Below, in pieces: positions 47,554 to 61,634 of a DNA stretch of 64,000 nt. The stretch's first letter is position 1, and each line of letters begins with the position of its first letter. The notes under the pieces were generated by a model that did no database searches, was not told the DNA's origin, and worked only from the letters and a program-made list of their open reading frames with translations. The stretch comes from Pedobacter aquae. Its GTDB lineage: Bacteria > Bacteroidota > Bacteroidia > Sphingobacteriales > Sphingobacteriaceae. The position numbers and the translations under genes are program-made. The stretch covers positions 3,162,001 to 3,226,000 of the forward strand of contig NZ_CP043329.1 in assembly GCF_008195825.1 (NCBI RefSeq). The letters are read 5' to 3'.

Positions 47554-48058
47554 AGTTGAAGAAGTACAATCGGTAGAATTTTCATCAGCATTGATTTTAA
47601 AGTTTGATGAAATTGTTAGCCGTTATCCGGAAGGAAAAAGTAAATCTGCTTTACTACCAATTTTACATGAAGTACAAGCGGTTTATGGTTGGTTAAGTTC
47701 AGCCGCCATGGATAAAGTAGCAGAATATCTACAGATACAGTCTATAGAAGTATATGAGGTTGCTACCTTCTATACGATGTTTTTCTTAAAGCCTCAAGGT
47801 AAATTTGTTTTGGAGGTTTGCCGTACAGGACCTTGCTGTCTAGTTGGTGCAGAAAAAATTATGGATTATATAGGTGATAAACTAGGAGTAAAAGAAGGGG
47901 AAGTTACTGCCGATGGTTTATTTAGCTATCGTGGGGTAGAGTGTTTAGCCGCTTGTGGTTATGCTCCGGTTTTACAAATTGGTCCAGAGTATACATTCTA
48001 CGAGAATTTAACTCCAGAATCTGTAGATCAGTTAATTGAAAATTTGAAAAATAAATAG
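47546..48058 (+). CDS. nuoE: NADH-quinone oxidoreductase subunit E
   Basis: 170 residues, the 24-kDa thioredoxin-fold subunit. The [2Fe-2S] ligands are CRTGPCC (C-x4-C) and CLAACGYAP (C-x3-C). It contacts NuoF in the NADH-oxidising module. A heptad-repeat element begins 1 nt after its stop. Confidence 0.94.
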   Translation: MLRVEEVQSVEFSSALILKFDEIVSRYPEGKSKSALLPILHEVQAVYGWLSSAAMDKVAEYLQIQSIEVYEVATFYTMFFLKPQGKFVLEVCRTGPCCLVGAEKIMDYIGDKLGVKEGEVTADGLFSYRGVECLAACGYAPVLQIGPEYTFYENLTPESVDQLIENLKNK

Positions 48059-48195
48059 ATTGAGTATTGGGATATGAGATTTGAGACTTTCATGGTCGTT
48101 CAAGTTTCATGATCACAAATAATATAAGGTTCAAAATGATGTGAGATTAGGTTGTGGGAATTTTATTTCTCAATACTCAATACTCACATCTCATA
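48059..48195. repeat. heptad-bracketed element A (four heptads, 81-nt cargo, four inverted heptads)
   Basis: Left arm 48059-48086 reads ATTGAGT, ATTGGGA, TATGAGA, TTTGAGA. Right arm 48168-48195 reads TCTCAAT, ACTCAAT, ACTCACA, TCTCATA, the same heptad class inverted. Left units 1-2 are complementary to right units 1-2 at 13 of 14 positions, so the RNA can fold into a hairpin. The 81-nt centre is non-coding. It fills the nuoE-nuoF gap, ending 11 nt before the nuoF ATG. Confidence 0.75.
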
Positions 48196-48206
48196 GCTAA
48201 TAAAAG

Positions 48207-49574
48207 ATGGGTCGTAAACTATTACTTGAGCATATTAACGTACCTGGTATCAACACTTTTCAGGTTTATAAAGAAAAGGGTGGATATAGAGCGGTAGAAA
48301 AAGCCCTTAAAACCATGTCTTCAGACGATATGGTGGAAGAGGTAAAGAAATCGGGATTACGTGGACGTGGAGGAGCAGGTTTCCCTACCGGGATGAAATG
48401 GAGCTTTTTGGCTAAGCCAGAAGGTGTGCCTCGTTATTTAGTTTGTAATGCTGATGAATCAGAACCTGGAACTTTTAAGGATAGGTATTTGATGACACAT
48501 ATTCCTCATGCTTTAATTGAGGGGATGATAGTTGGTAGTTACGCTCTAGGTGCAAACACTAGTTATATCTACGTACGTGGCGAAATGATGCCGCAAATAA
48601 GAATCTTAGAGAAAGCCATTGCAGAAGCAAAAGCAGCTGGTTTTTTAGGTAAAAATATATTAGGTTCTGGTTACGATTTAGAGATTTACGTACAGCCAGG
48701 TGGCGGTGCTTATATTTGCGGTGAAGAAACTGCTTTGTTAGAATCTTTAGAAGGTAAAAGAGGAAACCCAAGAATTAAACCTCCTTTTCCGGCAATTGCA
48801 GGTTTATATGGCTGCCCAACCGTAGTAAATAACGTTGAATCTATTGCGGCTACAGTGCCTATTGTAAATGAAGGTGGCGAAGAGTATGCTAAAATTGGTA
48901 TTGGAAGATCAACAGGTACTAAATTAATTTCGGCATCGGGTAATATTAATAAGCCGGGTGTTTATGAAATTGAGTTAGGCTTATCTGTAGAAGATTTTAT
49001 TTATTCTGATGAGTATTGCGGAGGCATAGCTAACGGTAAGAGATTAAAAGCAGTTGTTGCTGGTGGTTCATCAGTACCTATCTTGCCTGCTAACTTAATC
49101 TTAAATTTAGCTAATGGCGATAAACGTTTAATGTCTTACGAGTCTTTATCAGAAGGTGGTTTTGCTACAGGAACCATGTTGGGTTCTGGCGGTTTTGTAG
49201 TTTTAGATGAAGACCAATGTATCGTAAGAAATACTTGGAACTTTAGTCGTTTCTACCACCACGAGTCTTGCGGACAGTGTTCTCCTTGCCGTGAAGGTAC
49301 AGGTTGGATGGAAAAAGTTTTACACCGTTTAGAATACGGACATGGTAAAATGAGTGATATTGACCTTTTAGTAGATGTTTCTAAAAAGATAGAAGGTAAT
49401 ACCATTTGCCCGCTAGGTGATGCAGCAGCTTGGCCAGTAGCTAGTGCTATTCGTCATTTTAGGGATGAGTTTGAATGGCATGTTAAAGAGCCAAAATTAG
49501 CTTTAGAAAAAAATTATGGATTAGCCCATTATGCTGATCCTATAAAAGTAGCAGAAGAAGTAAGTGTGAATTAA
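48207..49574 (+). CDS. nuoF: NADH-quinone oxidoreductase subunit F
   Basis: 455 residues, the 51-kDa NADH-binding subunit. [16 protein letters not shown] binds [23 protein letters not shown] binds FMN, and [11 protein letters not shown] plus a later Cys (NTICPLGD) ligate the [4Fe-4S] N3 cluster. Entry point for electrons. Heptad-bracketed elements lie on both sides of the gene. Confidence 0.95.
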
Positions 49575-49988
49575 AAATTAAAAAATAAAAATTCAAAAGC
49601 TTGTCAAAGCCATATGATATAAAAGAAAGAACATTCCAATTTTCAAAAGATTTAATCTTCTTTATCAAAGAAACAAATACAGATAGAACATATAATTCTA
49701 TTATAGATCAGGTACTAAGAAGTGGTACATCTGTAGGAGCAAATGTTGAAGAAGGGAAGTCTGGAAGTTCAAAAAATGATTTTAAAAAGTTTTATATCAT
49801 AGCTCTTAAATCTGCCAATGAAACGAAATATTGGCTTAGATTATTGAAAGAGACAAACATAATTGAAACTGAAAGTATTAAAAGAGTAGATATATTAATA
49901 AATGAAATCAATGAAATCTCCAAAATTATAGCAACTATAGTTATTAATATGGGTAAGTGATTTTTGATTTTTTAATTTTGATTTTTTA
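49571..49988. mobile_element. heptad-bracketed element B carrying a four-helix-bundle gene
   Basis: Left arm 49571-49598: TTAAAAA, TTAAAAA, ATAAAAA, TTCAAAA. Right arm 49961-49988: TTTTTGA, TTTTTTA, ATTTTGA, TTTTTTA, which is the left pattern inverted. A further view shows 17 of 18 complementary bases (49576-49593 with 49974-49991). The arms enclose exactly one gene, 49601-49960. The element overlaps the nuoF stop and ends 10 nt before the nuoG start. Layout matches element A. Low-complexity AT sequence weakens the arm evidence, and mobility is inferred. Confidence 0.55.
49601..49960 (+). CDS. four-helix-bundle protein (23S rRNA intervening-sequence/S23 family)
   Basis: 119 residues from a TTG start. 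Family motifs are clear: FQFSKDLIFFIKE, QVLRSGTSVGANVEEGKSGS, DFKKFYIIALKSANETKYWL and ISKIIATIVIN. Relatives are encoded inside 23S rRNA intervening sequences and resemble the Avd accessory protein of diversity-generating retroelements; biochemical function is unknown. It has no relation to Complex I yet sits between nuoF and nuoG inside inverted heptad arms, so it looks inserted. Confidence 0.88.
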   Translation: MSKPYDIKERTFQFSKDLIFFIKETNTDRTYNSIIDQVLRSGTSVGANVEEGKSGSSKNDFKKFYIIALKSANETKYWLRLLKETNIIETESIKRVDILINEINEISKIIATIVINMGK

Positions 49989-49998
49989 ATTAAAGATA

Positions 49999-51003
49999 GT
50001 GTCTGATAAAATTAAAGTTACGATAGACGGAATTCCCGTTGAAGTAGAGCCAGGAACCTCTATTCTAAATGCTGCAAGGCAGATAGGTGGAGATATAGTG
50101 CCTCCGGCAATGTGTTATTACTCTAAATTAGAGGGTAGTGGAGGTAAGTGCCGTACTTGTTTGGTTAAGGTGAGCAAAGGTTCTGAAAAAGACCCTAGGC
50201 CTATGCCTAAGCTGGTAGCAAGTTGCAGAACTACTGTGATGGATGGTATGGAGGTGCAGAATATTACTTCGCCTGAGGTAATTGAAGCCAGAAAAGGCGT
50301 GGTAGAAATGCTATTGATTAATCACCCTTTGGATTGCCCTATTTGCGACCAAGCTGGTGAATGTCATTTGCAAGATTTAAGCTATGAGCATGGTGCGGCT
50401 ACTACACGTTATGAGTTTGACAGAAGAACTTTTGATAGGGTAGATATTGGCGATAAAATTCAACTTCACATGAACCGTTGTATTTTATGTTACCGTTGTG
50501 TGTTTACAGCCGACCAAATTACCAATAACCGCGTTCACGGAGTTTTAGGTAGAGGAGATCATGCAGAAATTTCTACTTACATAGAGAAAGCTATTGATAA
50601 TGATTTCTCTGGTAATGTGATAGATGTTTGCCCTGTAGGCGCTTTAACAGATAAAACTTTCCGCTTTAAAAATAGGGTTTGGTTTACAAAACCTGTGGAA
50701 GCACACAGAGATTGTCCTACTTGTTCAGGTAAAGTTACTTTGTGGTACAAAGGCGAAGAGGTGTTAAGAGTAACAGCAAGAAAAGATGTTTATGGCGAGG
50801 TAGAAGAGTTTATCTGTAATACTTGTCGTTTTGATAAGAAAAGCACAAATGATTGGGTAATTGAAGGACCAAGACAGGTATCAAGACAATCGGTTATCAA
50901 CTCAAACCATTACGATACTTTACAACCTTTACCGGTAATTAAGAAAAATCCGGAGTTGATGGAAGCAAATAAGGAACAATTCGAAAGAGCAACTAAATTT
51001 TAA
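49999..51003 (+). CDS. nuoG: NADH-quinone oxidoreductase subunit G (short form)
   Basis: 334 residues from a GTG start. Iron-sulfur sites are intact: the N-terminal 2Fe-2S cysteines ending KCRTCLVKV, HPLDCPICDQAGECHLQD with the His-Cys3 ligands, CILCYRC and VCPVGALTDK. The molybdopterin-like C-terminal domain of the roughly 900-residue E. coli NuoG is missing, as is usual in this phylum. The stop overlaps the nuoH start (TAATG). Confidence 0.93.
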   Translation: MSDKIKVTIDGIPVEVEPGTSILNAARQIGGDIVPPAMCYYSKLEGSGGKCRTCLVKVSKGSEKDPRPMPKLVASCRTTVMDGMEVQNITSPEVIEARKGVVEMLLINHPLDCPICDQAGECHLQDLSYEHGAATTRYEFDRRTFDRVDIGDKIQLHMNRCILCYRCVFTADQITNNRVHGVLGRGDHAEISTYIEKAIDNDFSGNVIDVCPVGALTDKTFRFKNRVWFTKPVEAHRDCPTCSGKVTLWYKGEEVLRVTARKDVYGEVEEFICNTCRFDKKSTNDWVIEGPRQVSRQSVINSNHYDTLQPLPVIKKNPELMEANKEQFERATKF

Positions 51004-60873: not shown

Positions 60874-61575
60874 ATGCATATTTTCTATACTCCTGATATT
60901 GATAGCACTCAATATACTTTAAGTGAGGAAGAGAGTAAACATTGCTCTAGAGTTTTACGCTTACAGAAAAAAAACCTTGTTCATTTGGTAGATGGAAAAG
61001 GCGGACTTTTTGTAGCTGAGATTTTGGACGACCATCCTAAAAGAACCGTTCTTCAGGTTTTAGATACGCAATTAGAATATCAAAAAAGAAATCATCATCT
61101 ACATATTGCCATAGCGCCAACAAAAAATATGGATAGGTTAGAGTGGTTTCTAGAGAAAGCAACAGAAATAGGTATTGATGAAATTACGCCTATTATTTGC
61201 GAGCGCTCTGAAAGAAAAGAAGTGAAAACAGAAAGGTTGGAAAAAGTTGTTGTTGCAGCTATGAAGCAATCTTTAAAAGCTTATATACCCAAAATTAATG
61301 AGCCTATCACCATCCAAAAATTGATAGCTAAAGCCGATGATGGTTTTAAATATATTGCGCATTGCCTACCTCAAGATAAACAAGAAATAAAAGATTCTTT
61401 TAAAGAACATCAATCTTATACCATCTTGATAGGCCCCGAGGGCGATTTCTCTGAAATAGAAATAAATAATGCTTTGCAAAGTGGATTTCTTCCCATAACT
61501 TTAGGAAACAGCAGGCTTAGAACAGAAACCGCTGCATTACAGGCATGCTTCGAAATCAATTATTTAAACAGATAG
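60874..61575 (+). CDS. rsmE: 16S rRNA (uracil-1498-N3)-methyltransferase
   Basis: 233 residues. A PUA-like N-terminus (EESKHCSRVLRLQKKNLVHL) precedes the SPOUT domain with KATEIGIDEITPIICERSER and the trefoil-knot SAM site IGPEGDFSEIE and LGNSRLRTETAAL. It methylates U1498 of 16S rRNA in the 30S subunit. A heptad array starts 3 nt after its stop. Confidence 0.93.
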   Translation: MHIFYTPDIDSTQYTLSEEESKHCSRVLRLQKKNLVHLVDGKGGLFVAEILDDHPKRTVLQVLDTQLEYQKRNHHLHIAIAPTKNMDRLEWFLEKATEIGIDEITPIICERSERKEVKTERLEKVVVAAMKQSLKAYIPKINEPITIQKLIAKADDGFKYIAHCLPQDKQEIKDSFKEHQSYTILIGPEGDFSEIEINNALQSGFLPITLGNSRLRTETAALQACFEINYLNR

Positions 61576-61578
61576 GAT

Positions 61579-61634
61579 ATAAAGTAGAAAGTAGAAAGTA
61601 CAGAGTAGAAAGTACTGGGTGTAAAGTAGAAAGT
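61579..61634 (+). repeat. heptad array C (eight direct 7-nt units)
   Basis: Units are ATAAAGT, AGAAAGT, AGAAAGT, ACAGAGT, AGAAAGT, ACTGGGT, GTAAAGT, AGAAAGT: exactly 56 nt. The consensus is AGAAAGT. It lies between rsmE and the DUF4159 gene, ending 12 nt before the GTG I take as the DUF4159 start. Unlike elements A and B there is no inverted half. Confidence 0.85.

Follow-up and report, generated by a model that had tools for sequence, protein, structure and literature searches.

The closest described relatives of the element reported here are the intervening sequences (IVS) of rRNA genes. The IVS of the Coxiella 23S rRNA gene, as presented in the available part of one study (PMC4990558), has a 28-bp terminal stem and tandem heptamers (GACAGAT) before the start codon of S23p; the number of repeats depends on the strain, RNase III cleaves the stem at the first of these heptamers, and S23p appeared not to be made in vivo. 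Heptamer repeats have also been described apart from rRNA, as TAACTGA repeats in Beggiatoaceae, Cyanobacteria and Bacteroidetes (MacGregor 2015, PMC4679880) and as the GGGAATC and GGGGA(C/T)T heptamers of Xanthomonas and Nostoc, which were treated as G-quadruplex sequences (Rehm 2015, PMC4692102). In the available portions of these two articles, the intergenic arrays of Cyanobacteria, Xanthomonas, Beggiatoaceae and Bacteroidetes are described without a partner protein. The main text of the former contains none of the terms "intervening", "four helix", "S23" or "23S rRNA", and that of the latter contains neither "four helix" nor "intervening". PF05635, one of the profiles matched by the protein studied here, was noted to resemble Avd in the accessible part of another article (PMC10053308). 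Within the open-licence literature, no paper was recognised as joining heptamer repeats to the IVP family beyond the Coxiella IVS.

The window (the whole 64-kb stretch of DNA that was analysed) carries a gene of this IVP/S23p family between two genes read as nuoF and nuoG (Table 1). The initial annotation had described four 7-nt units before the gene and four inverted units after it, the whole overlapping the nuoF stop and ending 10 nt before nuoG, and the positions of both arms, the stop and the GTG start agree with this to the nucleotide. The IVP frame is the only frame of at least 60 codons between the arms, and no transposase gene lies inside the inverted repeats. The element sits outside any rRNA gene, with no rRNA match at 44–57 kb of the window, where Rfam gave three weak matches and none at the IVP element. 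Its terminal inverted repeats are able to form a stem around the gene, as in an rRNA intervening sequence, and its arms are tandem 7-nt units in intergenic DNA, as in the described heptamer arrays.

Table 1. Positions of the IVP element, its neighbours and the other heptad arrays in the window.
Feature	Positions	Strand	Description
nuoF, upstream neighbour	48207..49574	+	Stop 49572–49574; open reading frame and gene order; name by reading
5′ arm	49571..49598	+	Four 7-nt units TTAAAAA TTAAAAA ATAAAAA TTCAAAA; overlaps nuoF stop codon
IVP / S23p / four-helix-bundle gene	49601..49960	+	119 aa, TTG start; PF05635 and TIGR02436 matches
3′ arm	49961..49988	+	Four inverted 7-nt units TTTTTGA TTTTTTA ATTTTGA TTTTTTA
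nuoG, downstream neighbour	49999..51003	+	GTG start at 49999; name by reading
5′ arm, gene-less hairpin, nuoE–nuoF junction	48060..48087	+	GAG/GGG heptads; 1.4 kb before IVP element
3′ arm, gene-less hairpin	48168..48196	+	CTCAATA CTCAATA CTCACAT CTCATAG
Solo heptad array	61569..61620	+	GTAGAAA/GTACAGA type; best inverted match within 1.5 kb only 8.5

Profile searches with the IVP of the window gave matches to PF05635 (E 6e-23, 81.5 bits, curated cut-off 33.8) and TIGR02436 (E 4e-25, 88.2 bits, cut-off 24), and no catalytic domain was seen by these matches. The predicted structure has four helices at residues 7–24, 29–54, 58–84 and 90–118 (pLDDT 92). Its best PDB matches were 2rld (2rld_E, E 2e-6) and 2gsc, each solved with five chains per entry, followed by Avd both alone (4dwl) and in the ribonucleoprotein of a diversity-generating retroelement (DGR; 8ub7). 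IVP matches numbered eight in the genome of the window and 91 in the genus, with at least one in each of its 18 genomes, and phage records gave no IVP match to the one query used (L140).

The arms and the IVP gene at nuoF–nuoG are not a product of chance and are not peculiar to this site. The best inverted match of the window element pairs 49569–49598 with 49962–49991 at a score of 20.0, which was reached by none of 2000 dinucleotide shuffles of the flanks, by none of 62 swapped partners (L028, L029, L030 and L033 being excluded for truncated flanks) and by 3 of 5000 shuffles when the AT-rich 40-nt arms alone were shuffled. Identity at lag 7 was 18/21 in the 5′ arm, with 10 of 5000 shuffles as high, and 16/21 in the 3′ arm, where 155 of 5000 shuffles were as high, so that the lag-7 score of the 3′ arm is weak taken alone. 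RNA folding of 49560–50002 paired both arms around the IVP gene (z = −2.0, with as low a value in 3 of 100 shuffles). Both arms are almost pure A/T, with four units each and no AG chain; the window copy is therefore an atypical member of its kind, in which the fivefold AG pattern described below is not seen.

The inverted arms recur across IVP loci. In a set of 130 loci (76 of the genus, plus 26 of the family and 28 of the phylum that were the best-scoring matches and are thus biased to typical IVPs), the 200 nt upstream of each gene were compared by alignment with the 200 nt downstream, reverse-complemented, taken either from the locus itself or from 40 other loci. The mean score was 16.5 for own flanks, 8.9 for swapped flanks, 11.7 in direct orientation and 8.4 for control flanks 500–700 nt away (127 loci). 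The reading given in the initial annotation depended on homologues carrying inverted heptad arms, and most of them do. The own inverted match exceeded the 95th percentile of the swaps in 97 of the 130 loci, 68 of which lay above all 40 swaps, in 48 of 79 loci of named genomes (threshold 14.0; L180, the 80th, was omitted), in 21 of 25 loci of viral contigs (threshold 14.0) and in 6 of the 8 plasmid loci, which come from Cyanobacteria, Spirochaetota and Chloroflexota; it did not do so in 33 of the 130 and 31 of the 79. The 25 viral loci were hand-picked from 43 as longer or non-duplicate matches, and two of them, L249 and L250, have like scores and possibly represent a single virus. The plasmid loci, from Nostoc (two), Anabaena, Dolichospermum, Planktothrix, Gloeocapsa, Treponema and Chlorohelix, were inspected out of 23 matching plasmid records, and heptads were visible by eye in all eight. 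Further clear arms were found in loci labelled Terriglobia (27.5), Planctomycetaceae (25.0), Harrisonbacteria (21.0) and Alphaproteobacteria (21.0), and unclear ones in loci labelled Nitrospirales (11.0), Actinomycetota (9.5) and Desulfuromonadales (13.0, flank partly masked); all of these are metagenome bins, so the taxon labels may err. In a control sample of 254 small genes of the window's own genome, IVP genes included, 7 scored at least 14 with 200-nt flanks, and 2 of these 7 were IVP genes.

The second-best score among these 254 controls (21.0) belonged to a GIY-YIG gene, which was considered as a second cargo and rejected, the flanks being a longer repeat of the GGAGTCGAAGG type and not heptads. 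At G000:C1:2472620-2476509, a run of tandem small nuclease genes gives eight GIY-YIG matches; their E-values are identical, and seven are spaced at exactly 358 bp. In two of the plasmid loci (L157 and L158, of Nostoc and Anabaena), heptad arrays accompany an IVP gene that is flanked by cas2 and cas1 and lies antisense to the two of them, and three others from Cyanobacteria and Chloroflexota (L161, L162 and L164) have IVP and heptad arrays inside operons annotated drmD–pglX and DUF1156–Swt1 HEPN. Downstream of another Nostoc IVP gene (L160, 1902–2214), a chain of 26 CT heptads of the GACTTGC type is followed by xisH and xisI.

The period of the arms is seven. Arm identity at lag 7 was 0.46 in the phylum set and 0.50 and 0.51 in the other two sets, against 0.26 in control flanks, with echoes at 14 and 21; other lags gave 0.22–0.32, and a smaller peak at lag 8 (0.34) occurred in the first, 130-locus set only. 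The repeat word differs from one IVP element to the next. G outnumbers C in the 5′ arm of 139 of 153 elements (154 elements scored at least 14), and a logo of 135 elements, its phase chosen by G, has G at 83 percent in one phase and A at 62 percent in the preceding position, giving AG every 7 nt. The lag-7 identity peaks at the G, and all seven phases lie above background. Rows with N were omitted from the mismatch, logo and arm-distance analyses.

Chains of AG at this spacing have a preferred length. In 234 loci, the longest upstream AG chain had 1, 2, 3, 4, 5, 6, 7 and at least 8 units in 30, 71, 37, 27, 45, 18, 3 and 3 loci, respectively, and the longest downstream CT chain in 61, 54, 26, 17, 59, 8, 5 and 4. 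The upstream chain is thus no longer than three in 138 loci, and among long chains a length of exactly five is the most frequent; the fullest cell of the two-way table, with 30 of the 234 loci, is that of exactly five units on each side. The peak was kept in 189 non-redundant loci, where chains of 4, 5 and 6 numbered 25, 36 and 16 upstream and 14, 47 and 7 downstream. Chains longer than three occurred in at most 6 of the 234 loci at spacings 5, 6 and 9, and in 16 upstream and 12 downstream at spacing 8. Chains of at least four on both sides were present in 71 of the 234 IVP loci (230-nt flanks) versus none of the 254 small genes (200-nt flanks). Five AG units as a universal rule was rejected, being contradicted by the window copy and by 4 of the 8 plasmid loci, which lack AG chains.

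The elements fit closely between the genes of an operon. Both neighbours were found for 205 of 209 loci, and in 184 of these the IVP gene is co-directional with both. Upstream, the 5′ arm begins a median of 2 nt past the stop of the preceding gene (measured in 112 of 136 elements). Downstream, a median of 11.5 nt separates the end of the 3′ arm from the next ATG (118 of 136 elements), this ATG being the first one in frame when reading from 20 nt upstream of the arm's end. The arms form the termini of the element, one next to the preceding stop and the other next to the following start, so that their stem would restore normal operon spacing. Some junctions recur, with 45 loci before a thiolase-type, 16 before an acyl-CoA-dehydrogenase-type and 12 before an argD-type gene (names read from translations).

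The IVP tree is built on few columns, and many of its forks are weak. Three of the seven same-junction groups form single clades on it, and the seven taken together are clustered (16 changes versus 55.9 in shuffles), indicating that IVP copies were often inherited in place. Each of the two largest groups requires 10 changes, no fewer than 4 of which are imposed by well-supported forks, and some of the co-change of arms in them may therefore reflect separate insertions. Arm similarity between species has been lost in 228 of 439 same-junction pairs, although each element's own arms match; the two largest groups supply 366 of the 439 pairs, and the three single-clade groups have 23 of 46 pairs unmatched. 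Both arms have changed together in such pairs, and the large groups may partly hold separate insertions. A DNA word kept alike at two places about 400 nt apart and yet differing between species asks for a copying mechanism. Mismatches within arms were 112 G-U versus 157 A-C (P = 0.007), no excess of G-U but rather the reverse, which speaks against selection on an RNA stem, with register slips as a confounding factor. Of the proposal in the initial annotation that the arms fold the mRNA into a stem, the predicted fold speaks in favour, and the tendency expected of RNA-level constraint was not seen.

The nuoF–IVP–nuoG order is not conserved within the genus, as the cassette idea of the initial annotation required. 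A nuoG match was found in all 18 genomes; the IVP gene lies between nuoF and nuoG in three of them, all of one clade: G000, G010 and G001, the last with an in-frame TGA. In 12 genomes nuoF and nuoG are adjacent without IVP, and the remaining 3 are uninformative. Some of the IVP-free junctions are bare and some have other inserts. The earlier idea of a mobile cassette is in keeping with this varying occupancy; copies are commonly inherited in place and may still move.

Other insertions were noted at the same junction. Flavo-1 RNA (RF01705) was confirmed at one of six loci scanned (L046, 2559–2654), and inserts resembling it by eye occur at nuoF–nuoG in several other genomes of the genus, and because of these the junction looks like a repeated landing site. 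In G013, a heptad-like array precedes nuoG, and the genes before nuoG in G013 and G011 are presumably HEPN-like and ORF6N-like, as read by eye.

Heptad arrays also occur away from IVP genes. A lag-7 scan of the window gave three arrays, and scans at lags 4–6 and 8–13 gave none. One site is a gene-less hairpin in the nuoE–nuoF junction, the RNA fold of which (48050–48212) has z = −4.1, with 0 of 200 shuffles as low. This junction is 128–351 nt long, with heptads visible by eye, in 12 of the 16 genus genomes with a nuoE match, and is a bare gap of 18–19 nt in 2, the other 2 being uninformative. Inverted scores in 11 of the 12 junctions ranged from 8.0 to 16.5, the three at 8.0 being background. 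Concerted change of the arms was considered for these gene-less hairpins as well and was not borne out (own mean 12.2 versus cross mean 11.2, 11 genomes). Another site is a solo array at the junction of a gene that we take to be RsmE-like and a following frame that reads through the array.

In 800 kb of the window's own genome, 22 arrays were found at lag 7, two of them near an IVP gene, along with 9 at lag 8, 13 at lag 9, 8 at lag 11 and none at lags 5, 6 and 10. For 16 of 18 arrays checked there, no inverted partner scoring at least 12 was present within 1.5 kb. Six IVP-rich genomes, sampled as 40 stretches of 20 kb (800 kb), had 17 lag-7 arrays, distributed over five of the six, and six genomes without IVP, sampled to the same extent, had none in any genome. 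The sampled stretches contained two IVP genes, and none of the 17 arrays lay within 1 kb of them, indicating that the detector is strict enough to miss some IVP arms.

The explanation judged best, with somewhat better than even confidence, is that the window element and its relatives are elements of the rRNA-intervening-sequence type placed in mRNA junctions, the heptad arms of which form a stem and, it seems, provide the sites of an IVP ring. The window element would be one copy of a widespread kind, with the IVP gene in the loop of a heptad-armed hairpin, and the intervening-sequence design may have moved to mRNA junctions or be native to them. In the transcript, the stem would bring the nuoF stop and the nuoG start near each other again and is probably a substrate of RNase III, as in rRNA. 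The chances are about even that the IVP recognises heptads, either in RNA or in single-stranded DNA. By analogy with the five-chain structures, the protein is probably a five-membered ring gripping the heptad arrays with one heptad per subunit, which would explain the number five. TRAP, an 11-membered ring that grips eleven (G/U)AG triplets, offers a likeness for such a grip. The IVP may bind in cis and also at gene-less arrays elsewhere in the genome. Both arms appear to have been rewritten together in evolution, probably with one copied from the other in the hairpin, and hairpin template switching is the plainest guess for a copying that keeps the arms alike. A wider picture is offered tentatively, as a possibility we would not bet on: the IVP would be a five-membered counting ring for heptad-spaced AG, bacterial heptamer repeats its sites, the element a self-propagating hairpin that rewrites both arms, the rRNA IVS a special case that landed in rRNA, and Avd a relative of this kind taken into DGRs.

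Several other explanations have to be weighed. An element acting at the level of DNA, with arms that are terminal inverted repeats, (NNNNNAG)n pointing inward, and an IVP working on DNA or single-stranded DNA together with host enzymes of replication or repair, would make the RNA stem incidental. Symmetric ends of this sort fit the AG strand that runs inward at both ends (G over C in 139 of the 153 5′ arms), and the reading also accommodates the lack of a G-U excess, the gene-less hairpin and solo arrays, arms that match within elements but differ between species, and the separate insertions that the two largest junction groups may hold. It does not explain why 184 of 205 genes are co-directional with both neighbours, which a DNA element need not obey; the IVP has no catalytic domain that we could see, and much of the family was inherited in place, given that three of the seven junction groups are single clades. 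We regard the DNA-level element as a serious though rather unlikely explanation. An autoregulatory leader, in which the IVP would attach, in a TRAP-like manner, to AG heptads both in the mRNA that encodes it and in other leaders and control translation or RNA decay with neither mobility nor self-copying, is less probable still. The placement of the 5′ arm, after the upstream stop and ahead of the IVP gene, and of the 3′ arm before the next start would suit such a role, as would five AG units beside five-chain structures and, in the available part of PMC4679880, the Beggiatoaceae TAACTGA arrays found mostly just upstream of start codons. Such a leader by itself leaves unexplained that one word is used in both arms and that this word differs between species.

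Polymerase slippage with hairpin correction by quasi-palindrome template switching could also generate such arms, with the IVP taking no part and merely surviving there. Repeats above background in all seven phases are consistent with slippage, and so are the Cyanothece strains, most of whose differences, according to PMC4679880, are indels in steps of 7 nt within TAACTGA regions. This explanation is nevertheless improbable, because arms occur at IVP genes and are rare at other small genes, no arrays were found in the six IVP-free genomes sampled, a peak at five units is unlike open-ended slippage, and heptads recur in several phyla. That AT-rich intergenic DNA looks inverted and periodic by chance might be argued from the almost pure A/T arms of the window and the weak periodicity of its 3′ arm; it is contradicted by the shuffles, the swaps and the family-wide result and deserves practically no credence. 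An intervening-sequence-type element in mRNA junctions remains the reading preferred here.

These arms tie an orphan protein family to long-known, unexplained heptamer repeats, most of the relatives examined being boxed in the same way. Two puzzles meet here, the IVP/S23p family, which has solved structures and lacks an established function, and the heptamer arrays, which lack a partner protein, and the link makes both testable by a single binding assay.

Among known systems, REP/RAYT combines short intergenic hairpins in many copies with a transposase encoded by a few. The heptad arrays are alike in the many short intergenic hairpins with few protein genes; they differ in that no catalytic domain was found in the IVP and in that the unit word changes from element to element. 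Avd shares the fold of the IVP, and in this neighbourhood, read by eye, the genes are nuo genes with no reverse transcriptase, unlike a DGR. The TAACTGA repeats are likewise intergenic heptamer arrays, and TAACTGA itself occurs in the arms of two IVP loci (L011 and L026); in the available part of PMC4679880, a single word is followed and the repeats are mostly direct, unlike the arms of IVP elements. The GGGAATC heptamers share the intergenic setting, with 70 convergent pairs in X. campestris in the accessible part of PMC4692102, and X. campestris is the species of the solved IVP 2gsc. The rRNA IVS differs from the present elements, which sit in mRNA junctions, have their own heptad word each, occur in several copies per genome and would be cut by RNase III only by analogy. 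It resembles the window element in that terminal inverted repeats enclose the IVP gene as a loop, with heptamers before the gene, a likeness stronger than the initial annotation had claimed, as the Coxiella IVS, in the available part of PMC4990558, has heptamers of its own and is cut by RNase III at the first of them.
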